Below the pieces are notes generated by a model. It did not search any database. It was given only the letters and a program-made list of their open reading frames with translations, and was not told where the DNA came from. Positions 3,021 to 24,820 of a stretch of 35,879 nucleotides of DNA are shown one piece after another. How positions within the stretch are numbered: position 1 is the first letter of the stretch; each line of letters starts with the position of its first letter. Source of the DNA: Methylobacter sp. (lineage in GTDB: Bacteria; Pseudomonadota; Gammaproteobacteria; Methylococcales; Methylomonadaceae); contig JAURZV010000023.1 in NCBI GenBank assembly GCA_030653175.1, forward strand, positions 1-35,879. The letters run 5' to 3'. Made by a program: the position numbers and the translations under genes.

Positions 3021-3596
3021 ATGAACACCTTAAATATATTACTTATTGAAGATGAAACTACAGATCAGTTATTAGAAAAAATACTGACTACTAAAGGCTA
3101 TTCAGTCACAAACACGGTAACATCTGAAGCAAACATTCCATCTTTGGCGATGAACAGCAAAACCGATATTGTTATTTTTAATATCGACAGCCCCAAAAAA
3201 TATTTTCCGCACATACATTATCTTAACCGGAACCAGCCGCTCCCCATCATTATCTTTGCAGCTGACGACACCTCCGACACCATCAAGCAAATCGTTAAGG
3301 CCGGAGTCAGCGCTTATGTTGTCAACGGCTTGGAAACCAGCCGCATTAACAGCATCATCAATATCGCTGTGGCGAGATTTAAGGAACAACAACGGCTTAC
3401 AAATGAATTGGAAAAAACGAAATCCAGGCTTGAAGAGAGAAAATTAATCGACCGGGCAAAAGGCATTTTAATCAAAACCCGCGGCTTTACGGAAGACGAT
3501 GCTTATCATACCCTGAGGAAACTGGCGATGGATCGCAATATTGCAATCGGGGAAATGGCGAAAAACGTTATCGCCATGGCTGAACTTCTTAAGTAG
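3021..3596 (+). CDS. nasT: NasT-type ANTAR antiterminator response regulator
   Basis: This 191-residue protein has an N-terminal receiver-like domain: ILLIEDE for the acidic pocket, FNIDSP at the phospho-acceptor position and AGVSAYVVNGL near the end. A coiled linker leads to a C-terminal ANTAR domain (RLEERKLIDRAKGILI to the C-terminus AMAELLK). NasT proteins bind two-hairpin RNA leaders and prevent intrinsic termination of nitrate-assimilation transcripts. Three matching leaders occur in this window (about 11457, 14904 and 18369). The ATG at 3021 places the receiver motif at the normal distance. An upstream TTG at 2949 after a G-rich stretch is an alternative start. The gene is divergent from nirBD. 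The usual partner nasS, a cytoplasmic nitrate/nitrite-binding inhibitor, is not beside it. A 3' remnant of a second nasT lies at 11975-12054. Confidence 0.9.
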   Translation: MNTLNILLIEDETTDQLLEKILTTKGYSVTNTVTSEANIPSLAMNSKTDIVIFNIDSPKKYFPHIHYLNRNQPLPIIIFAADDTSDTIKQIVKAGVSAYVVNGLETSRINSIINIAVARFKEQQRLTNELEKTKSRLEERKLIDRAKGILIKTRGFTEDDAYHTLRKLAMDRNIAIGEMAKNVIAMAELLK

Positions 3597-8613: not shown

Positions 8614-8966
8614 GTGTCGATCCTCATATCACCGCCAAATTAGAACGCGATGGCATAATCGAACATTATCTGACCTGCATCGGTTTGAGTGATGTCCTGC
8701 ATACAAAAAGCCGACTGCATGTATGCGCCAACGGTCCTGTAGTGCCCGCGTCTTTGCCTTATCGTCCAAACTACCATGCCCGGATTAACCTTTCAGTATG
8801 CTGGATTTTATAACCCGCCGGGAATTACAGGGAATGCTGATGGAAGTCCGGGGAAGCCCCCGTCACTGTCATTTTGATCACCTGCGATGAGGCTATCCTG
8901 CCGGGAAACCGAGTGGTGGTCGTGATGACTCAAGGCTCACACGCCAAAGTCAAAGACATTGAATGC
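8614..8966 (+). pseudogene. Remnant of a second nitrate-transporter ATPase (nrtD-like, C-terminal part)
   Basis: This stretch aligns base for base with 22642-23013, the second ATPase domain of the intact nrtC gene. In pieces it reads LERDGIIEHYLTCIGLSD (intact copy: [18 protein letters not shown]), CANG, MLMEV, PVTVILIT, CDEAILPGNRVVVVMT and SHAKVKDIE. Frameshifts, an in-frame stop and loss of the signature, Walker B and H-loop residues show that it is dead. A short ORF at 8874-9080 is part of this debris and should not be called a gene. It marks a lost second copy of the nitrate ABC transporter operon. Confidence 0.85.
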
Positions 8967-9158
8967 CGTGAGTGGCTGGGCCTTGACCGGCATTACCGGA
9001 AAATTGAAGACGCGCCCATTTCTATCATTACGATAAAAACGGCGCGGTCAATGAAGCATCAGGCTGAACCTGAAATGTAGATACGACGATAATCAGTCAG
9101 TTTGTCTAAACAGGTACTCGAACTGCACTGCGGCAGCCCACAATTTCATCCGACTATA

Positions 9159-11284: not shown

Positions 11285-11332
11285 AGAACCTGATTGGTGC
11301 AATGCATAGGAAAGCCGCACCTGTTAAGTGCG
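11285..11332 (+). promoter_or_regulatory. Pair of NtrC-like sites, cassette 1
   Basis: Site A (11285-11301) reads AGAACCTGATTGGTGCA and site B (11316-11332) reads CGCACCTGTTAAGTGCG. Both resemble the dyad TGCACCA-N3-TGGTGCA and start exactly 31 bp apart. Site B ends 98 bp before the sigma-54 promoter. Spacing is the same in cassettes 2 and 3. Confidence 0.55.
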
Positions 11333-11430
11333 TTATTTTAAGAATCCAAATTACCCTTATTATGCTAAAGGTAATTTATAACCACTTATATTTGTTAAAT
11401 AATTAACATAAATAATTCATATCACAATTT

Positions 11431-11446
11431 TGGCACAACGATTGCT
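11431..11446 (+). promoter_or_regulatory. Sigma-54 promoter, cassette 1
   Basis: TGGCAC, five bases, TTGCT matches the -24/-12 consensus exactly. The expected start of transcription is near 11457, at the 5' edge of the hairpin leader. Confidence 0.85.
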
Positions 11447-11456
11447 TTTCAACACT

Positions 11457-11572
11457 ATAGAGACGCCAATGGCGGAGCACTAAAGGAATCCTGGTTTGAT
11501 GGCGAACCCTATTGACAAAGACGTCTAACAGACTGAATGCGTTAAGCATTCCGCGGGGAAACGCTTTTTTTT
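11457..11572 (+). promoter_or_regulatory. ANTAR-type (NasT) antitermination leader, copy 1
   Basis: Hairpin 1 has loop AATGGC (11468-11473) on a weak, mismatched stem. Hairpin 2 has stem GGTTT/GAACC around loop GATGGC (11498-11503). The conserved block GTCTAACAGACTGAATGC follows, with the terminator hairpin and eight T. This order matches the two-hexaloop RNA bound by NasR/NasT ANTAR proteins. The stems are the weakest of the three copies, and the nearest gene start is almost 500 bp downstream past a MITE and a nasT remnant. This copy may therefore be partly decayed. Confidence 0.75.
11521..11572 (+). terminator. Leader terminator, copy 1
   Basis: GAATGC (11535-11540) pairs with GCATTC (11546-11551) inside a wider imperfect stem, followed by eight T at 11565-11572. 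The outer stem is weaker than in copies 2 and 3 because the 5' arm has mutated. Confidence 0.7.
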
Positions 11573-11736
11573 GCCTGATCCAAGACGGTTTCCATGAGTT
11601 AAATTACTCTGTGTATTTGCCAGTGTGTTGATATTTCCACATCAAAAATAAAAAGAGCAATTATTGAGACATCTTGGAACCGAAAAACAGCAGTTTCTTG
11701 CGGACATGGAAAGCGATGTAATCAGTAAAAAATGAA

Positions 11737-11915
11737 TTACAGCAATTTCAATTTAAAGGGATTACTAACTCTATTAAAAGGCTATGTCGTCATCATTGTC
11801 GCTGGAGTGCAGGCTTCGCCTGCGCCGGCAAGCAAAGCTTGCACTCCCGTCACGCCATAGTTTCAATAAGCATCGTAGCTATTTTAGTAATTAACTGAAT
11901 TTGAAAACGCTGTAA
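11737..11915. mobile_element. MITE-like element, copy 2 (179 bp)
   Basis: The same ends and core as the copy at 8276-8555: TTACAGC at left and GAAAACGCTGTAA at right, AAAAGGCTATGTCG, the paired cores, then CCATAGTTTCAATA. It lacks the internal duplicated unit of copy 1. It lies between the ANTAR leader and the nasT remnant, separating leader 1 from the EAL gene. Confidence 0.75.
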
Positions 11916-11974
11916 GACGAATTTGAAGAATGGAAACGGGTAGATCAACTAAAAACGATATTTACCACACAGCA

Positions 11975-12054
11975 AAAAACTGGCGATGAGCAGCAATATA
12001 GTAATCGGGGAAATCACAAAAATTGTTATTTCCATGGCTGAACTCCTTAAATAA
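11975..12054 (+). pseudogene. Remnant of a second nasT (ANTAR domain 3' end)
   Basis: In frame the stretch reads KLAMSSNIVIGEITKIVIS and then MAELLK-stop. The intact NasT ends KLAMDRNIAIGEMAKNVIA, MAELLK-stop. The DNA match covers about 80 bp including the stop codon, but no upstream receiver or ANTAR start remains. It abuts the EAL gene, whose ATG is 11 bp after this stop. This shows that the EAL gene once followed a nasT copy. Confidence 0.85.
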
Positions 12055-12065
12055 ATACCCATATT

Positions 12066-13355
12066 ATGAATCCTGAAAAAAAACTATTCTCTTTGTCAAT
12101 GGCCAACAGAATTGAGCCTATTGTTAGCACTGCCAGCGGCTCTATCAGCAGCTATAAAGCATTAGCCAAACAACACCAATATATGAGTCAAGAAAAAAAA
12201 CTATTTCCTTATTTTCAACCTATTATTGGCGCTGCCAGCGGCACTATCATCGGTTATGAAGCATTAGCCCGGCAACATGACGCAAATGGCCAGGTTATTT
12301 CAGCCGGTGAATTATTCTCTTCGCCGGACATTGCCGCCGACCAACTGATAGCATGGGATCGCATGGTTCGACGTCAAGCTTTGGAGCAATTCAGTCGATC
12401 CAATTACAAGGGATATTTAACCATCAATATTTCAGCCGCCTGGATCGACCACCTCGCTGACTTTAATTCATTACCGACGCTGCTAATGCTGGACGAGTTT
12501 AATGTGGATAGAAGCCGCGTCATTATTGAAATAACCGAATCAAAAGGCGACCTGGACAAACTCGTTGAAATTGCCAGCCTGTATCGCCAACACGGCTTGA
12601 AAATAGCAATTGATGATTTTGGCGCCGGCTTTTCTCAGCTGGAAAGAGTCATGGCCATACAACCCGATATCATCAAACTGGACATGCAGTTATTCCAGAA
12701 TGCCGCCAAAGGCGGTATCGCCGGCGATGTTGTGCATTTGATATCTCGTCTGGCGAAACGCACCGGTTGCCGTATCGTTTGCGAGGGCGTGGAAACCGTT
12801 GGCGACTTTCATTTCGGCTTAAGCTGCGGCGCCCAATATATGCAAGGCTATCTGTTTTCGCCCGCCACAGCGGAATTTAAAGAACCGCTGCATTATCAAA
12901 AACAAATCAGCTCGCTGAGAAAAACCTTCCTGAAAAAGACCCTGGCCAAGGAAGAACACAAGATACAGTTTATCGCCAATATTAAGGGCTTGATCGAACT
13001 CCTGAAAAAAGCACTGGAAACCGACTTCAACCTCAAAAAATTATCAGCGCACCCGTTTGAAAAAAGCGGCATCTTACGATTCTATTTATGCAATAACGAA
13101 GGCGACCAAATCTCATCGAATTTTAATTTTGCCGATGGTAAGTGGTTCGAGGACCCGGCTCAAATTGGCTTTAACTGGGCATGGCGACCTTATTTTTATC
13201 AATTGCTGGCGCTTGAGTCGGCAAAAGACAGTTACCGCCTGGTCACTTCCGAACGCTATCGGGATTTTAACAGCGATATGCTTTGCAAAACCCTATCGCT
13301 TAGACTGGACGACGAGCGTATTTTATTAATCGATATTGCTGCCGAATGGCTATGA
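12066..13355 (+). CDS. EAL-domain cyclic-di-GMP phosphodiesterase
   Basis: The protein is 429 residues, or 390 if the second ATG at 12183 is used. The EAL domain spans about residues 45-275. Its catalytic set is intact: EAL in GYEALARQH, Asn in NISAAW, Glu in IIEITES, IDDFGAGFS, Lys in IIKLDM, Glu in CEGVE and Gln in QYMQGYLF. It should hydrolyse c-di-GMP and favour motility over attachment. The last 130 residues (FYLCNNEGDQISSNF, WAWRPYFYQL) form a PAS/Cache-like sensing domain of the kind that follows EAL in YkuI. The first 39 residues are a degenerate copy of residues 40-75, from a DNA duplication of about 115 bp. No strong ribosome-binding site precedes either ATG. Confidence 0.9.
   Translation: MNPEKKLFSLSMANRIEPIVSTASGSISSYKALAKQHQYMSQEKKLFPYFQPIIGAASGTIIGYEALARQHDANGQVISAGELFSSPDIAADQLIAWDRMVRRQALEQFSRSNYKGYLTINISAAWIDHLADFNSLPTLLMLDEFNVDRSRVIIEITESKGDLDKLVEIASLYRQHGLKIAIDDFGAGFSQLERVMAIQPDIIKLDMQLFQNAAKGGIAGDVVHLISRLAKRTGCRIVCEGVETVGDFHFGLSCGAQYMQGYLFSPATAEFKEPLHYQKQISSLRKTFLKKTLAKEEHKIQFIANIKGLIELLKKALETDFNLKKLSAHPFEKSGILRFYLCNNEGDQISSNFNFADGKWFEDPAQIGFNWAWRPYFYQLLALESAKDSYRLVTSERYRDFNSDMLCKTLSLRLDDERILLIDIAAEWL
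12075..12272 (+). repeat. Direct duplication of the EAL gene 5' end
   Basis: The stretch GAAAAAAAACTATTC...GCATTAGCC at about 12075-12172 recurs at about 12191-12272. Shared blocks include CCTATT, GCTGCCAGCGGC-like, TATGAAGCATTAGCC and CAACA. The upstream unit has diverged (EALARQH has become KALAKQH). It probably arose when the gene 5' end was rebuilt next to the nasT remnant. Confidence 0.75.
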
Positions 13356-13367
13356 TTTTGAATCTTC

Positions 13368-13440
13368 GCCGTTGTTAGCATCAATAAGCGAGTCATTACT
13401 TTCAACAAAAGCGCTCAAGATCGAACGTGAAGACAGGGAA
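13368..13440 (+). pseudogene. Remnant of a DUF2721 gene 3' end
   Basis: CGTTGTTAGCATCAATAAGC and the next 50 bp match 18118-18190, the 3' end of the intact DUF2721 gene, at about 90 percent identity by eye. The rest of the gene is absent. It lies 12 bp after the EAL stop codon, just as the intact gene lies downstream of the chemoreceptor. Confidence 0.85.
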
Positions 13441-13527
13441 GGATAGCCAACCCTTCCGCTTCATAACGACATATCGATATTTTATAGTGCTCTTTTTGCA
13501 CCGATTTGAGGCGGATGCAATGGTCAA

Positions 13528-14445
13528 CTAAAACAGAAAAGCGACCACCGCTTTCAACTTTCCGCCATCGATGACAGGCATTGCAAGCATGGAACTCAAG
13601 CGCCCTTCTACAAGCGCAACTTCCGAGTTATTTCTGATAGCAGGAACGCCGGTTAGCCATACTCTGCCCAATAGTCCCTCGCCTTTGCGTACCGAGATGG
13701 TTTCAAACATTTCCGCCAGCTCATCATTTTGTCTACTGTATCCTGACTGACACACCAACCGTTGACCATTTTCATCCGGCACCCATATCTGTATGCGTTT
13801 GGCAATTGGCGTAGCTTTAGCCGACAGAAATGTCATGATATAAACCTGATTTGCAACAACCGAAACCGGGATACCCAGCGCCGTCGTTATCCCGGCTTTT
13901 CCGGCATCCGGGCTTCTGATAAAAGCGGGCGCTTGTCCCAGATCCTCTATGAGTACGGGCATGCCTGTTTCCCACACCTGTCCGGGTAAACCGGAACCCT
14001 TGATGAAGCTCATTGTTCTGGATATGCTTTTAAATTCATCCAGCGTACCGTAATATCCGTCAACCACAGCCAGCTCGGTATTTTTTTCCAAGCTGTTGCT
14101 CCACACTTCTATAGCGCCGGCATGATGCTGATCGTCTCCACACAAAAAAACCACCACGGCCATTATAAATTCACCTGAAAAAACAGGTATCGCAATACCG
14201 CAGGTTAAACCTGCTTTTTTGGCCGATTTTGTCCGCTTAAAATAAGAGTGATCAAATTCCGTTAATACGACAGGATGACCTGCGGCCCATGCTTTACCGG
14301 GCAACCCTTCATCATAAGCGAAGGACTCTTTTTCGCTGGCGACCCGGAATTCATTCAAAGCGCCATACAGTCCTGCGCTAAACCCCAATCGGGTACGATC
14401 TTTTGTGGGTATCCATATTTCCGTTACCTTAATAAATGTTTTCAT
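13528..14445 (-). CDS. Triple GAF-like repeat protein of unknown function
   Basis: This 305-residue protein is built of three tandem modules of about 100 residues, at roughly 1-104, 105-210 and 211-305. Each repeats the same order: a beta strand (EIWIP, EVWSN, QIWVP), a GxYG or GYS turn, a region ending GLPGKAW, GLPGQVW or GLLGRVW, a short G-xP-V segment and a closing AIPV/GIPV/AMPV strand. This matches GAF-type ligand-binding folds. No output domain, signal peptide or membrane helix is present. It could be a soluble ligand sensor or adaptor acting with the chemoreceptor or Cache protein, which is inference. The ATG is one base after the stop of a 31-codon remnant peptide. Confidence 0.7.
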   Translation of the reverse strand: MKTFIKVTEIWIPTKDRTRLGFSAGLYGALNEFRVASEKESFAYDEGLPGKAWAAGHPVVLTEFDHSYFKRTKSAKKAGLTCGIAIPVFSGEFIMAVVVFLCGDDQHHAGAIEVWSNSLEKNTELAVVDGYYGTLDEFKSISRTMSFIKGSGLPGQVWETGMPVLIEDLGQAPAFIRSPDAGKAGITTALGIPVSVVANQVYIMTFLSAKATPIAKRIQIWVPDENGQRLVCQSGYSRQNDELAEMFETISVRKGEGLLGRVWLTGVPAIRNNSEVALVEGRLSSMLAMPVIDGGKLKAVVAFLF

Positions 14446-14446
14446 A

Positions 14447-14542
14447 TCAAGCCGTTTTTTTTATACAAGAAAGCAGCTTATGAGTAACTGATCGACGTTC
14501 TTCATATTTTTCAATAACATTAAGATGACTTATCTTGGACAT
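14447..14542 (-). pseudogene. Truncated duplicate of the Cache sensor gene 5' end
   Basis: On the minus strand it reads MSKISHLNVIEKYEERRSVT, HKLLSCIKKTA-stop. The intact sensor gene at 10208-11176 begins MSKMSHINVIEKYDEHRVAI, HNLLSS. Homology stops after about 25 codons and the frame closes after 31. The remnant leads directly into the GAF-like gene (stop TGA, one base, ATG). It may still be translated as a leader peptide that couples to that gene. Confidence 0.85.
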
Positions 14543-14730
14543 AATCGGAATACCTGAGAATTAATAATGACTCTCCAAGTAGTAGCAGGTTTTATGCCGA
14601 ATTGGAGAAACAGCTTGGACGACAGCATGAATGCAGGAGCTGTATCGCGGTGTACCGAGGAGCTTATATCTGTCTATGCTCCCGTAAAACGCCTGCTTTT
14701 GGTGCAGCCATTCCTATACCGTACCTCAAG

Positions 14731-14778
14731 GGAACTCAATTGGTGCAACACATAGAAAGATTGCACTCATTCGATGCA
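14731..14778 (+). promoter_or_regulatory. Pair of NtrC-like sites, cassette 2
   Basis: Site A (14731-14747) reads GGAACTCAATTGGTGCA and site B (14762-14778) reads TGCACTCATTCGATGCA. They start 31 bp apart, and site B ends 100 bp before the sigma-54 promoter, as in cassettes 1 and 3. Confidence 0.55.
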
Positions 14779-14878
14779 TTGCTCTCGAAACCCTCATTAT
14801 CCTTGCGATATAAAAGGTAATCGGTAACCAATTGTAATTATTAAATAAGATCTATGGAAAAATATCATATAACCATTT

Positions 14879-14894
14879 TGGCACAACGCTTGCG
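14879..14894 (+). promoter_or_regulatory. Sigma-54 promoter, cassette 2 (chemoreceptor)
   Basis: TGGCAC, five bases, TTGCG: both the -24 and -12 elements are present with correct spacing. Transcription should start near 14904. Confidence 0.85.
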
Positions 14895-14903
14895 TTAAAC
14901 ACT

Positions 14904-15017
14904 ACAGAAGCCCTGATAGCGGGGCACTGAAAGATCTTGGTTTAACGGCGAACCATATTGACAAAGGCGTCTAACAGACTGAATGCAGCAGCATTCCGCT
15001 TGAAGACGCTTTTTTTT
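14904..15017 (+). promoter_or_regulatory. ANTAR-type (NasT) antitermination leader, copy 2
   Basis: Hairpin 1 has stem GCCCT/GGGGC around the six-base loop GATAGC (14915-14920). Hairpin 2 has stem GGTTT/GAACC around loop AACGGC (14944-14949), with A at position 1 and G at position 4 as in known ANTAR hexaloops. The terminator follows. The chemoreceptor start codon is about 210 nt downstream with no other gene between, so antitermination would directly switch on the chemoreceptor. Confidence 0.85.
14967..15017 (+). terminator. Leader terminator, copy 2
   Basis: The outer stem GCGTCT (14967-14972) pairs with AGACGC (15004-15009). An inner hairpin is GAATGC/GCATTC, and eight T follow at 15010-15017. 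Confidence 0.85.
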
Positions 15018-15225
15018 GTCCCCCTTTAAGAATAGAAAAACCTAACAATGGATTAATAAATGTCCGCAGCAATTTAAGCCCTCATTACATTGCAAGCATT
15101 CGATACATTCTGGATTTAATAGCGTCGGCACAACAATCGTAATGACCGGCCGGAACATGGATCTAATCGAAAATATTTACTATTTAACAATCCCAATCAT
15201 AAATATAGAAACAGGAGATTGCATC

Positions 15226-17466
15226 ATGCTGAATAACTTGAAAAACTCCGGACAGTTAACTATCAAAATGCGTTTTACGATAATTGTCAGCACTTTGGTC
15301 ATCGGTTTTTCACTGTTCGGTTTCGCAACATTCAAGGCCATGAATACACTGAATGTTAATGGCCCCATTTATCAACGCATAGTCCAGGGTAAGGATATTA
15401 TTGCCGATGTCCTGCCTCCGCCTGAATACATCATCGAATCCTATCTGGTGACGCTGCAATTAACTCAAGCCACCGATCCTGCTGAAATCAGCGCTTTAGT
15501 AACGCGTTTTCAAACGCTAAAAACGGAATATGAATCCCGCCATAGTTACTGGTCAGGTCAGACTTTGGAGCAGGAGCTTCACACGCCATTGCTTCAAGTC
15601 TCTTACCAGGCTGCGCAAGACTTTTATAATGAAGCCGACCATCATTTTCTGCCTGCCATCCAGACACGAGACCGCAATGGATCGCTGAACAGCCTCCAAA
15701 AAATGCGTCATGCCTATGAACAACACCGTATCGCTATTGATAAAGCGGTGCAACTGACGACGGCTCGCAATGCAGCGGATGAGACGCAAGCTCGAAACAC
15801 GATCCATCGGTACGGCATCATCCTGATCGGCATTTTCGCTTTCAGCGTTGCGGTGGCCGTAACATTGACAGCCCTAATCAGCCGCGGCATTATTCGATCA
15901 ATCAAAACTGTCCAACAAGTTGCAGGAGCCATTGCAAATGGAGATCTGAGCTCCAGCATTGATACTTATCAAAAAGATGAGGTTGGGGATCTATTGCGTT
16001 CGATGAAAATCATGCAGGATTCTATCAGCTTCTTCGTTGTAAGCCTGGACGATATGGCACAAAAGCATGCACAAGGCTGGGTCAAAGAGCAACTTGATAG
16101 TTCGGCATTCTCCGGTATCTATGGCAGGATAGCCTATGAAGTTAATGACTTAATTCAATCGCGTATCCTGATAAATAGAAAGCTGATCAGCATCGTCGCT
16201 CAGTATTCAAAAGGTGATTTCTCTGTTGACATGGACGTTTTGCCGGGAGAAACAATTGCCATTACCGAGATTATGGACAATGCAAAAAAAACCTTCCTCG
16301 CAGTTAACAACGAAATCAAAATGCTCGCAGAAGCAGGCGCTCAAGGCGACTTCTCAAAGCGTAGTGATCCGGATAAATTTGAGTTCATGTTCAAGGAGAT
16401 TTTGACTAATCTCAATAACCTGATGAAAACCTGCGATGCCGGCTTCAACGACGTGCTGCATGTCGCCGATGCCGTGGCTCAAGGCGACTTGACCCAAACT
16501 ATCGACAAAGACTATCCCGGCACTTTTGGCGAAATGATTGTCGGCATGAATAGTATTGTAGAAAACCTCAAAGGCCTGGTAGGCAATATCAAGGACTCCA
16601 CCGACAGCATTCACACAGCGGCTAACGAAATCGCCGCCGGTAACAATAACTTGTCTCATCGCACCGAGGAGCAAGCCGCCAGCCTGGAACAAACCGCCGC
16701 CAGCATGGAAGAACTGACCTCCGCCGTGCAGCATAATGCTGCAAACGCCCACCACGCCAACCGGCTCGCCGTTGACGCATCGGACATCGCGGGCAAAGGC
16801 GTTGAAGTGGTCGGCCAAGTCGTCACGACCATGAATGACATCAATGAATCTTCACGTAAAATCGGCGACATTATCTCGGTGATCGACGACATCGCGTTCC
16901 AGACCAACATTCTTGCGCTCAACGCTGCGGTAGAAGCCGCCCGCGCCGGCGAACAAGGCCGGGGCTTTGCCGTTGTAGCCGTAGAAGTGCGCAATCTTGC
17001 GCAACGCGCCGCGACGGCTGCCGGAGAAATCAAACACCTGATTAATGATTCGGTGGACAAAGTCTCGGGAGGCAGTAAATTGGTTGCCCAAGCGGGGCTG
17101 ACTATGGAAGAAATCGTCGCCTCCGTCCGTGGCGTTACCGACATGATGGCCGAAATCACCGCCGCCTCCGCAGAGCAAAGCTCCGGCATCGAACAGGTCA
17201 ATCAAGCCATCGCTCAAATGGATGACGTAACCCAACAAAATGCCGCCTTGGTAGAACAAGCCGCAGCGGCAGCGGAATCGCTGGAAGAACAAGCGCAAAA
17301 CCTGGTGATCACAGTGAGCAGTTTTAAAGTGGCAGGTAACTCAGGCACTTCAAACAGCTGTTTTCATTTGCCGCCCGCGAAAAAAGAAACCACACTACCC
17401 GGAACAGGCGCCGGTAAGCATTTACAGTTACAACTTGCTGATAATGATGATTGGGATGAGTTTTAA
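15226..17466 (+). CDS. Methyl-accepting chemotaxis protein
   Basis: The protein is about 746 residues from the ATG at 15226, which has AGGAGA seven bases upstream. An ORF start at 15142 lacks such a site. TM1 is at about residues 16-38, a mostly helical periplasmic domain of about 155 residues follows, and TM2 is at about 196-219. A HAMP domain follows TM2. About 170 residues of further HAMP-like helical repeats come next ([31 protein letters not shown]). The cytoplasmic signalling hairpin has the conserved tip [20 protein letters not shown]. Glu/Gln-rich methylation helices flank it ([20 protein letters not shown]). There is no CheR-binding NWxxF-type pentapeptide at the end. It transmits a periplasmic signal to CheA/CheW. 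Its nitrate-type promoter and leader suggest a nitrogen-related ligand, but that is inference. Confidence 0.95.
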
Positions 17467-17478
17467 TCCCCATTTATT

Positions 17479-17750
17479 ATCTAAAAGTAACTGCTCACCC
17501 TAGCAGAGGCTCGCTCCAACACGCCGCAAGACGTGCTATTTGGAATTGTAAATTTCAAAGCGAGCTTTGAACTCCGGCATCCGCATTTCCTGGAGTCCAA
17601 AGCTTGCTTTGGTCACTTAAACCTGAAAAAATCAGTTAAATGTGATGTCTTCGCGTCTTGGTTTTCATCGATCAATTGATTCTCCCAGGTTAAAGATTGG
17701 TTTTACCTACATGGATGTAGGTGAGGGGCATGAGCAGTTACATCTAAAAA
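17479..17750. repeat. Inverted-repeat-bounded element before the DUF2721 gene
   Basis: GTAACTGCTCA at 17487-17497 is repeated inverted at 17731-17741. Inside are the paired AAAGCTTGCTTTGG-type stem related to the MITE core at 8.3 kb and one CCTACATGGATGTAGG palindrome. No coding capacity is seen. Confidence 0.55.
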
Positions 17751-17807
17751 ATGATAAAACCAGATTTTATTTTGAGGCATATTAGCCGGGAACCTTTATA
17801 TATAGCC

Positions 17808-18200
17808 ATGGACATCACCATTACCACACCCGCCCTGTTATTTCCCGCCATTTCAGTGTTGTTTTTGGCCTATTCCAACCGTTTTCTGGCGATTGCCGGC
17901 CGGATTAGAGAACAGCATAACCTGTTTAACAAAACCCAAAGCCCGGTTGCCAAAAAACAGATCGACAGCTTAAGGCTCCGCATCCGTTTTATTGTGGCTA
18001 TGCAAGTGCTGGGAGTCGTTGGGATTATCTGCTGCACACTCGCTATGGGGCTGATTTTTTACGGATTGCAATATTACGGCAACATTACTTTCGGCTTCAG
18101 CATGGTGTTTATTGTTTTATCGTTGTTAGCATCAATAAGCGAGTTATTACTTTCAACAAAAGCGCTCAACATCGAGTTGGAAGATATGGAGGCGCATTAG
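17808..18200 (+). CDS. DUF2721 family inner-membrane protein
   Basis: The protein is about 130 residues. It starts MDITITTPALLFPAISVLFLAYSNR, the typical beginning of DUF2721. It has one N-terminal membrane segment and two C-terminal ones (AMQVLGVVGIICCTLAMGLIF and SMVFIVLSLLASISELLLS) with a charged cytoplasmic loop between (RIREQHNLF). The function of the family is unknown. The ATG at 17808 fits the family start; an ORF start at 17751 adds 19 residues without a clear ribosome-binding site. A remnant of its 3' end lies after the EAL gene at 13368-13440, so it moved together with the duplicated signalling genes. Confidence 0.85.
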   Translation: MDITITTPALLFPAISVLFLAYSNRFLAIAGRIREQHNLFNKTQSPVAKKQIDSLRLRIRFIVAMQVLGVVGIICCTLAMGLIFYGLQYYGNITFGFSMVFIVLSLLASISELLLSTKALNIELEDMEAH

Positions 18201-18245
18201 TCATAGTTGGTGCAAATTAATAGGCGAATGCACAAAATTGATGCA
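18198..18245 (+). promoter_or_regulatory. Pair of NtrC-like sites, cassette 3
   Basis: Site A (18198-18214) has only the right arm TTGGTGCA well preserved. Site B (18229-18245) is TGCACAAAATTGATGCA, a strong match to the dyad. They start 31 bp apart, and site B ends 98 bp before the sigma-54 promoter. Site A overlaps the DUF2721 stop codon. Confidence 0.6.
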
Positions 18246-18343
18246 TTACAGACATAAACCCGTCTCACCTTACCCTACCCAATACGAGCTATAACCGCCT
18301 ATATTCATTAACTTAAATCCATAAAACAAGCATTTACCAATTT

Positions 18344-18359
18344 TGGCACAACGATTGCT
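18344..18359 (+). promoter_or_regulatory. Sigma-54 promoter of the nrt operon, cassette 3
   Basis: TGGCAC, five bases, TTGCT is a full -24/-12 match. The expected transcription start is near 18369. Confidence 0.88.
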
Positions 18360-18368
18360 TTAAACAAT

Positions 18369-18485
18369 ACAGGTGCTCCAACGACGGGGCGCTAAAAAAT
18401 AGGGGTTCAACGGCGAACCCAAACAGACAAAGGCGTCTACCAGACTGAATACATCACGTATTCCGTTAGGTGACGCTTTTTTTTT
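18369..18485 (+). promoter_or_regulatory. ANTAR-type (NasT) antitermination leader of nrtA, copy 3
   Basis: This is the best preserved of the three. Hairpin 1 is GTGCTCC/GGGGCGC with loop AACGAC (18380-18385). Hairpin 2 is GGGTTC/GAACCC with loop AACGGC (18409-18414). Both loops have A1 and G4, the positions conserved in ANTAR-bound hexaloops. The conserved link ACAAAGGCGTCTA leads into the terminator. nrtA starts 32 nt after the T-run. NasT binding should prevent termination and let RNA polymerase enter the nitrate transporter operon. Confidence 0.9.
18433..18485 (+). terminator. Leader terminator, copy 3
   Basis: GCGTC (18433-18437) pairs with GACGC (18472-18476). The inner hairpin GAATAC/GTATTC (18447-18463) and nine T follow the usual plan. 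Confidence 0.88.
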
Positions 18486-18516: not shown

Positions 18517-19917
18517 ATGAAACAAACCGGACGATTTACTATCAAAAAACTGGTTACAGCGCTGGTTGCTGTGACTGCGGTATCAACCTTTTCCTTTGCA
18601 ACCAGTGCTTATGCAGCTGAAAAGCTGGAAAAAGAAAGTTTAAAACTTGGCTTTATCAAACTGACCGATATGGCGCCTTTGGCGGTTGCCTCTGAAAAAG
18701 GCTATTTCGAAGAGGAAGGCCTCTCCGTGCAAGTGGAAGCACAAGCCAACTGGAAAGTTTTATTGGACCGTGTCGTCAGCGGCGAACTGGACGGAGCGCA
18801 CATGCTGGCAACCCTGCCCTTTGGCACAGCCATCGGCTATGGCACCAAGGCCGATATTGTCAGCGCTTTCACCATGACCTTAAACGGCGATGCGATTACC
18901 GTATCCAACGATGTCTGGAATCAAATGAAGCCGCAGATTCCGATGAAAGACGGCAAGCCGGTACATCCTATCAAAGCGGATACTTTAAAACCGGTACTTG
19001 AGAAATACAAAAGTGCGGGGAAACCTTTCAACATGGCGATGACCTTCCCGGTCGGCACGCACAACATGAAATTGCGTTACTGGCTGGCGGCCGGAGGCAT
19101 TAAGCCCGGTTTTTACGCACCGCCTGAAGATACTTCCGGTCAAATTGACGCCGAAGCCATGTTGTCTGTCACGCCGCCTCCGCAAATGCCGGCCACCATG
19201 GATTCAGGCACGATTGTCGGCTACTGCGTAGGCGAACCGTGGAATCAGCAAGCGGTATTCAAAGGCATTGGCGTACCGGTCATCAGCGATTATGAACTGA
19301 TGAAAAACAGCGCTGAAAAAATATTTGGCGTGACCAAAGAATGGGCGGATAAAAACCCCAATACCCATAAAGCGGTGATAAAAGCCTTGATTCGCGCATC
19401 GATGTGGCTGGATGCGGAAAACAACAAAAATCGTAATGAAGGCGTGGAAATGTTGTCGCAAAAACAATATGTCGGAGCTGATTACGAGGTTATCGCCAAC
19501 AGCATGAATGGTACTTTTGAATATGAAAAAGGCGACAAACGCGACCTGCCCGATTTCAACGTATTCTTCCGTCATAACGGCTCTTACCCTTATTACAGTG
19601 ATGCGGTCTGGAGTCTGACGCAAATGCGCCGCTGGGGACAAATCAACGAATACAAAACCGATGCCTGGTACATGGAAACCGCTAAAAAAGTGTATCGTCC
19701 TGATATTTACATGGCTGCGGCCAAGGCGCTGATTGCCGAAGGCAAGGCGAAAGCCGGCGATTTTCCTGCCGACAACGAAACCGGCATCAAGCCGCCTAGT
19801 GCAGACTTCATTGACGGTATCAGTTTCGACGCCACCAAGCCCAATGATTATCTGGCTAAGTTTCCTATCGGTCTTAAAGGCAAGCAAAAAGTAGTGGGCG
19901 GCAAGGTTGTTGAGTAG
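18517..19917 (+). CDS. nrtA: Nitrate ABC transporter substrate-binding protein NrtA
   Basis: This 466-residue protein has a signal peptide ending SAYA before AEKLEKES. The mature part follows the NrtA/CmpA pattern: LKLGFIKLTDMAPLAVASEKG, YFEEEGLSVQVE, ANWKVLLDRVVSGELDGAHML, FPVGTHNMKLRYWLAAGGI and VGYCVGEPWNQQ. It binds nitrate (or nitrite) in the periplasm and delivers it to NrtB. The ATG at 18517 has a GAGG ribosome-binding site. An exported protein of this kind cannot replace the cytoplasmic sensor NasS. The gene heads the nrtABC operon and is preceded by an RpoN promoter and an ANTAR leader. About 350 bp with repeats and a hairpin separate it from nrtB. Confidence 0.92.
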   Translation: MKQTGRFTIKKLVTALVAVTAVSTFSFATSAYAAEKLEKESLKLGFIKLTDMAPLAVASEKGYFEEEGLSVQVEAQANWKVLLDRVVSGELDGAHMLATLPFGTAIGYGTKADIVSAFTMTLNGDAITVSNDVWNQMKPQIPMKDGKPVHPIKADTLKPVLEKYKSAGKPFNMAMTFPVGTHNMKLRYWLAAGGIKPGFYAPPEDTSGQIDAEAMLSVTPPPQMPATMDSGTIVGYCVGEPWNQQAVFKGIGVPVISDYELMKNSAEKIFGVTKEWADKNPNTHKAVIKALIRASMWLDAENNKNRNEGVEMLSQKQYVGADYEVIANSMNGTFEYEKGDKRDLPDFNVFFRHNGSYPYYSDAVWSLTQMRRWGQINEYKTDAWYMETAKKVYRPDIYMAAAKALIAEGKAKAGDFPADNETGIKPPSADFIDGISFDATKPNDYLAKFPIGLKGKQKVVGGKVVE

Positions 19918-24758: not shown

Positions 24759-24820
24759 TGCACCAAAATAATGCGCGATACATTGCACCATGATAATGCA
24801 TGGTGCATTATTATGGTGCT
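24759..24820 (+). promoter_or_regulatory. Cluster of NtrC-like sites before narK
   Basis: Three 17-bp dyads are seen: TGCACCAAAATAATGCG (24759-24775), TGCACCATGATAATGCA (24784-24800) and TGCATTATTATGGTGCT (24804-24820). Each keeps one full TGCACCA or TGGTGC arm. About 30 bp downstream is CGGCAC ... TATGCC, a sigma-54-like pair whose spacing is one base too long. Confidence 0.5.

Follow-up and report, generated by a model that had tools for sequence, protein, structure and literature searches.

Candidate NasT-type antitermination leaders before nitrate transporter, chemoreceptor and phosphodiesterase genes in Methylobacter

A 35,879-nucleotide stretch of the genome of Methylobacter sp. (contig JAURZV010000023.1; hereafter the window) carries three leaders resembling those bound by ANTAR antiterminators such as NasT. 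One precedes the nitrate transporter gene nrtA, one a gene for a methyl-accepting chemotaxis protein (MCP) and one a gene for an EAL phosphodiesterase. The presence of a NasT-type leader before a chemoreceptor gene is well supported by the features described below, whereas the function of the leaders, namely NasT binding, readthrough and response to nitrate, is what we infer from them. We propose, with a probability of roughly 0.7, that NasT controls each leader as a terminator/antiterminator joined to an NtrC- and sigma-54-type promoter, that nrtA and the MCP gene are so controlled, and that the EAL copy is decaying. The window is part of a source genome of 4.0 Mb in 109 contigs.

Architecture of the three leaders

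All three leaders lie on the + strand, at 11454-11572 (EAL), 14901-15017 (MCP) and 18366-18485 (nrtA), and end in 8, 8 and 9 T, respectively. A first-pass annotation had placed the three copies at 11457, 14904 and 18369. Pairwise identity of 73-78% over about 180-210 bases indicates that the leaders are homologous copies. The genes behind them had been named correctly, as protein domain matches confirm (nrtA, MCP, EAL with YkuI_C). The features of the three cassettes, with hairpins numbered H1 to H3, and two further genes are as follows.

18229-18245, +: NtrC-like palindrome TGCACAAAATTGATGCA, nrtA cassette (pattern match, consensus assumed)
18343-18358, +: sigma-54 -24/-12 element, nrtA (pattern match)
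18372-18393, +: hairpin H1, loop AACGAC, nrtA leader (folding and alignment)
18403-18420, +: hairpin H2, loop AACGGC, nrtA leader (folding and alignment)
18425-18438, +: hairpin H3, loop AAAGGC, nrtA leader; overlaps the terminator arm
18431-18485, +: predicted intrinsic terminator, nrtA leader; 9 T, -21.0 kcal/mol by folding
18517-19917, +: nrtA (NMT1_2), first gene in the nitrate transporter run
14762-14778, +: NtrC-like palindrome TGCACTCATTCGATGCA, MCP cassette (pattern match)
14878-14893, +: sigma-54 -24/-12 element, MCP (pattern match)
14910-14925, +: hairpin H1, MCP leader; in-register loop GAUAGC
14938-14955, +: hairpin H2, loop AACGGC, MCP leader
14960-14971, +: hairpin H3, loop AAAGGC, MCP leader; overlaps the terminator arm
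14966-15017, +: predicted intrinsic terminator, MCP leader; 8 T, -18.6 kcal/mol by folding
15226-17466, +: methyl-accepting chemotaxis protein; predicted helical-bundle periplasmic domain, HAMP repeats, MCPsignal
11316-11332, +: NtrC-like palindrome CGCACCTGTTAAGTGCG, EAL cassette (pattern match)
11430-11445, +: sigma-54 -24/-12 element, EAL (pattern match)
11462-11479, +: degraded hairpin H1, EAL leader; in-register loop AAUGGC
11493-11508, +: hairpin H2, EAL leader; in-register loop GAUGGC, A1 lost
11514-11525, +: hairpin H3, loop AAAGAC, EAL leader
11519-11572, +: degraded terminator, EAL leader; 8 T, -13.8 kcal/mol, small hairpins only
12066-13355, +: EAL phosphodiesterase with YkuI_C domain
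3021-3596, +: NasT; degenerate receiver domain and ANTAR domain
13528-14445, -: GAF protein, candidate NasT partner and nitrate sensor

Each leader had been described as two hexaloop hairpins, a link and a terminator. The link, GTCTA[A/C]CAGACTGAAT, is indeed present in all three copies and forms the rising arm of the terminator. The secondary structure was evaluated in an alignment of 38 leaders, the three window copies included, picked from 47 same-strand leaders of the window genome and related genomes (left out were L026, L030, L033, L037, L039, L057, L058, L042 with its degraded MCP leader and, at L048 15169, a truncated EAL leader). Over H1, H2 and the terminator, 91.8% of cells are paired and 9 of 19 pairs have changed on both sides. 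The alignment holds 47 cells with changes on both sides versus 19.4 in shuffles, and versions slid out of register are all at most 53% paired. None of 500 shuffles reached its paired percentage or its covariation score. The leaders thus show compensatory pairing.

The third hairpin, H3, with the core GAC[AAAGGC]GUC, was absent from that annotation. Its three-pair core can form in 38 of 38 leaders. Because two of the pairs are invariant and the remaining one varies on one side, the support for H3 is conservation, not covariation. The 3' side of H3 is at the same time the 5' arm of the terminator (common alignment columns 69-76), and the two structures are therefore mutually exclusive. H3 would be expected to serve as the antiterminator hairpin. 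According to passages of PMC7496416, a hexaloop hairpin overlaps the terminator stem also in EutV-regulated leaders, and in vitro selection (systematic evolution of ligands by exponential enrichment) with NasR enriches for A1, for G4 and for a loop closed by C:G.

Read by letters in register rather than by folding, A1 and G4 occur together in H1 of 34, H2 of 30 and H3 of 37 of the 38 leaders, and every leader possesses at least two such hexaloops. The closing C:G pair, again by letters, is found in 31, 31 and 38 leaders, respectively. Linkers measure 3-7 nucleotides (nt) between H2 and H3 and 7-14 nt between H1 and H2. Likely, H2 and H3 make up the classical hexaloop pair and H1 is an extra site.

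The three window leaders are real but unequal in quality, the nrtA copy being a textbook case. Folds of 125 nt compared with shuffles gave z-scores of -6.22 for nrtA, -3.46 for MCP and 0.04 for EAL. Consensus hexaloops are present in H1, H2 and H3 of the nrtA leader and in H2 and H3 of the MCP leader. The EAL leader has consensus H1 and H3 by letters, but its H1 stem is broken and its H2 folds with a four-base loop, so that two usable hexaloops are doubtful there. The original description of two hexaloop hairpins holds fully for nrtA and in the second hairpin only for MCP, and it is doubtful for EAL. The T runs are as described and the nrtA and MCP terminator stems are predicted by folding, but in the EAL terminator two of eight pairs are mismatched and the long stem is lost. 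Without a proper terminator, control of the EAL gene in the window is therefore doubtful. The long stem does form in the EAL leaders of the relatives SV96 and C15 (-24.3 and -25.6 kcal/mol versus -13.8 in the window), and in SV96 the predicted terminators of all three leaders are intact. The distance from the leader match to the start of the EAL gene is 495 nt in the window, 301 nt in SV96 and 186 nt in C15.

Distribution and descent of the leaders

A model of the three leaders finds only these three copies above noise in their own genome (expectation value E 6e-31 to 6e-28, values that follow from its construction). The next match lies on the reverse strand, with E 0.003, and further ones have E 2.2 or worse. 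A covariance model seeded with the 38 leaders detected the element in 136 of 237 genomes of the family, from some of which it had been seeded, and in 21 of 29 genera at E 1e-4. At E 1e-3 it was detected in 149 of 301 genomes sampled from the order, 16 of them outside the family.

By the gene downstream, 113 leaders were classified, mostly from the top-scoring matches listed and hence no random sample (two opposite-strand rows of 115 were left out): nrtA follows in 77 cases, nirB in 15, an EAL gene in nine, an MCP gene in seven, narK in two, a porin gene in one and a contig end in two. Nitrate or nitrite genes (nrtA, nirB, narK) account for 94 of the 113. The porin is of the alginate-export type (L069, 210-326).

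The short terminated leader RNAs could also act in trans, as decoys titrating NasT, just as small RNAs of the ethanolamine locus titrate EutV. Each leader has its own promoter element and terminator and, by letters, two or three hexaloops; several copies occur in some genomes. Yet 110 of the 113 classified leaders are followed on the same strand by a gene of the panel and one by the porin gene, the other two standing at contig ends. Moreover, there is no sigma-70-like or sigma-28-like match from the terminator of the MCP leader to the start of the MCP gene, and a second promoter for this gene was not seen. A decoy role therefore appears improbable.

Directly upstream of an MCP relative, a leader was found in six of 26 named loci, among which the records nearest to the window may be missing: M. 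tundripaludum SV96, Ca. M. oryzae (weak, 39.9 bits), C15, FW305, LacPavin and a Methylovulum metagenome-assembled genome. In one more, M. tundripaludum OWC-G53F, leader, EAL gene and MCP gene follow in a row. Counting the window, MCP leaders are found in six Methylobacter genomes, in one of them degraded. MCP terminators of the window, SV96, C15, FW305, LacPavin and Methylovulum fold with -15.6 to -29.3 kcal/mol, and the H1-H2 part of these six leaders is about 2 standard deviations better than base shuffles. In Ca. M. titanis, the EAL, MCP, DUF2721 and nasT genes share one strand and no own leader was found.

The Methylovulum MCP is a different chemoreceptor, with a TarH/4HB domain, at an unlinked locus. 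In its cassette, sigma-54 element, NtrC-like site and terminator are all present, and H1 and H3 have A1/G4; the H2 loop, AACAGC, lacks G4. No nitrate gene is recognisable by eye in 6.0 kb of its contig. The ligand domain of the window MCP matches no Pfam family above cut-off. In its residues 1-223 the Pfam profile detects no PilJ ligand domain (E <= 1), and a PilJ fold is still compatible.

In a tree of 29 leaders, the MCP leaders and the EAL leaders of the window, SV96 and C15 form separate clades (0.981 and 0.961), both lying apart from the nrtA leaders that these genomes carry. They are therefore not fresh copies of the neighbouring nrtA leaders. Elsewhere the tree is weakly resolved, and the MCP leaders do not make up one clade. 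We read the leader before the MCP gene as an old capture kept by descent, though short of proof. Probably, a cassette of the nrtA region was copied within Methylobacter and the copy then retained before the MCP gene.

An unlikely alternative is that the MCP and EAL leaders are mere relics of segmental duplication and regulate nothing. The region is rich in duplicated fragments. An 80% copy of the nasT 3' end (11977-12053, from 3519-3595) stands between the EAL leader and its gene, the end of the DUF2721 gene recurs downstream of the EAL gene in a copy of 96% (13370-13424, from 18121-18175), and a duplicated 5' end of a Cache gene lies at 14467-14598. The window EAL terminator is broken, the EAL leaders of L048 (15169), L063 and L065 lack the H3/terminator core (no H3 core was found in them), one leader (L049) precedes an EAL fragment, and the Ca. 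M. oryzae MCP leader is degraded. Against mere relics speak H2, H3, the terminator and the sigma-54 element, which are kept in the MCP leaders of five Methylobacter genomes, the separate clades of MCP and EAL leaders, and a cassette with terminator before the unlinked MCP gene in Methylovulum.

Two of these EAL leaders (L048, 15169-15273; L063, 2536-2643) keep the letters of H1 and H2 and run toward the coding sequence without the H3/terminator core; translational control or decay are both possible there. Elsewhere in the window, 8632-8951 resembles parts of nrtCD (72%) and 8969-9051 part of a porin gene (82%); both stretches may be remnants of a second nrt operon.

Promoters, NasT and the candidate nitrate signal

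The sigma-54 pattern has four matches in the window, where 0.17 are expected, and none of 100 shuffles reached four. They stand before each of the three leaders and before nirB, the latter at 2722-2736 on the - strand. With the model of the three leaders, no leader was found at the window nirB, though nirB carries one in other genera. Promoters of five Methylobacter MCP genes read CGCTTGC, those of nrtA and EAL in the window, SV96 and C15 CGATTGC. The source genome encodes RpoN and has 12 MCPsignal matches as well as flagellin matches.

Palindromes begin at 11316, 14762 and 18229, near -137 of each window copy. They resemble what we take to be the NtrC consensus, and we assign them to NtrC on that assumption. 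Of 30 promoters examined, 16 have a similar site at -132 to -139, that of the Methylovulum MCP included (background 0.07 per kb), and two more have one elsewhere within 200 bases. Two further NtrC-like palindromes, 25 bases apart, lie at 24759-24800 upstream of narK (25118).

The proposed mechanism is as follows. Under nitrogen limitation, NtrC and sigma-54 would start transcription, as the sites suggest. When nitrate is missing, the terminator would form and the transcript would stop after about 115 nt. When nitrate is present, free NasT would bind the hexaloops and hold H3, the 5' arm of the terminator would be occupied, and polymerase would read through. In this genome nrtA and the MCP gene would thus be under the control of nitrate and NasT, and the chemoreceptor would be made when nitrate is worth using. 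The EAL copy would be the same cassette in decay, its attenuation probably weakened or lost. NtrC site, sigma-54 promoter and leader combined suggest an AND gate for nitrogen limitation and nitrate. ANTAR-type control, as originally proposed for all three copies, gains from the A1/G4 hexaloops, the hairpin competing with the terminator, the encoded NasT and the preservation of the MCP copy in relatives; it loses ground at the EAL gene, whose terminator is lost here.

The window NasT matches the ANTAR family PF03861 with 70.7 bits (cut-off 27.3), its receiver domain scoring 29.2 bits, just below the cut-off of 30.2. By sequence, its closest solved relatives are 1s8n (a putative antiterminator), then EutV (6wsh, 6ww6) and the nitrate regulatory protein 4akk, which we take to be NasR. 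The ANTAR domain aligns with those of EutV and NasR. NasT matches, some of them weak, exist in at least 151 of the 237 family genomes at E 1e-5. One genome with the leader (G153, 86% complete) has no NasT match among the matches listed.

Several observations weigh against the proposed control. The NtrC-like pattern is not significant in the window (six matches with 2.43 expected; 6 of 100 shuffles reach six). Many of the 30 promoters share descent, and 12 of them have no such site, among these the MCP promoters of FW305, LacPavin and Ca. M. oryzae and all three nirB/narK promoters examined. In the window MCP leader, H1 has lost A1/G4 and folds to a loop of four bases, and the closing pair of H2 is U:G. 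H1-H2 of the EAL leaders is no better than shuffles in SV96 and C15 (-9.6 vs -8.9 and -9.7 vs -9.9). The MCP leader of Ca. M. oryzae has a terminator of -8.1 kcal/mol, and its H1-H2 is likewise no better than shuffles. An upstream leader is absent from 19 of the 26 named MCP loci, one of which (L147) starts 242 bases from a contig end. Identity of the MCP leader to that of C15 is 0.87 versus 0.83-0.84 for two long flanks, so little above them that it is no sign of purifying selection. Finally, NasS is absent from the source genome, whose sole NMT1_2 protein is NrtA, and a second ANTAR protein is encoded there (contig C81).

The last two points would fit leaders that answer to this second protein or to a signal other than nitrate, since, with NasS missing, NasT may respond to a ligand other than nitrate. 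We consider this very improbable. The window NasT is located in the nitrate cluster, and both NasT and leader are widespread in the family (at least 151 and 136 of 237 genomes; these are overall genome counts, with exceptions such as G153).

In place of NasS, we propose the GAF protein as NasT partner and candidate nitrate sensor. It was found in 79 of 237 family genomes, and in at least 58 of these 79 its gene lies at most 200 bp from nasT on the same strand; the window genome is not one of them. The predicted fold (pLDDT, predicted local distance difference test, 84) contains about three GAF-like units and matches many GAF domains, NreA (E about 1e-4) not being the best. NreA is also the only NCBIfam match at E <= 0.001 (E 7e-6), with 25.8 bits, far short of the curated cut-off of 175. 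In a genome of the same genus (G144), a divergent NasT and a protein that we take as NasS stand beside leader and nrtA (L050, 7866-9687), with no GAF match. This NasS-like protein has matches of at least 70% in six of 237 family genomes, the source genome not among them, and none of the six has the GAF protein. Many genomes with leader and NasT, e.g. those of g12, have neither protein, and the GAF proposal therefore cannot be general.

With less than even confidence, we extend the proposal of NasT-controlled leaders to a portable cassette, placed repeatedly before different chemoreceptors and a cyclic di-GMP phosphodiesterase, which would work as an AND gate and in which an NreA-like GAF protein would replace NasS.

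Relation to known systems

The first-pass annotation knew of no description of taxis and cyclic di-GMP turnover under nitrate-controlled antitermination. The titles and abstract openings listed from a set of 5.39 million open-access papers, without subscription papers and supplements, contain no NasT/ANTAR antitermination of a chemoreceptor or EAL gene. The nearest related element is in a figure legend in the Supporting Information of PMC3369931, which in 2012 named a putative ANTAR RNA where an MCP gene begins, in overlap with the ribosome site, and proposed translational control. We read the window leaders as a variant of the ANTAR leader with unusual targets, which is new.

Elsewhere, in those parts of the literature that we draw on, nitrogen metabolism is the main context of ANTAR antitermination. 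A working MCP leader would let nitrate decide, by way of RNA, which chemoreceptors are made in part of the repertoire; the leaders suggest that the cell's sensing may be tuned by nitrate supply. Such a link between nitrate supply and methanotroph behaviour would be directly testable, and it would come with a possible new nitrate sensor for NasT.

Like NasR with the Klebsiella nasF leader and EutV with the eut leaders, as far as excerpts of PMC7496416, PMC3369931 and PMC8934654 describe them, the window system combines A1/G4 hexaloops, a preferred C:G closing pair, a hairpin set against an intrinsic terminator and an ANTAR protein. It differs from them in that its candidate hexaloop hairpins number three, its promoter is of the NtrC/sigma-54 type and the genes behind its leaders include those for a chemoreceptor and a phosphodiesterase. 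With NasS-NasT of Paracoccus and Bradyrhizobium, in the portions of PMC3795266 and PMC6759348 at hand, it shares a NasT-type protein of receiver and ANTAR domains and leaders before nitrate/nitrite assimilation genes; unlike there, the source genome has no NasS and the linked candidate partner is a GAF protein. The putative ANTAR RNA at the MCP gene in the legend of PMC3369931 would act on translation, whereas the window MCP leader is a predicted attenuator.

McpN of Pseudomonas aeruginosa is likewise a chemoreceptor with nitrate-dependent expression, a property that the window MCP would share. According to part of PMC6381276, nitrate lowers mcpN transcripts, whereas it should raise those of the window MCP, i.e. 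with the opposite sign, and the PilJ domain of McpN was not detected in the window MCP. The GAF protein, in turn, shares the GAF fold with NreA of Staphylococcus and differs from it in its score (25.8 versus the cut-off of 175 bits), in its roughly three GAF-like units and in the linkage of its family to NasT.

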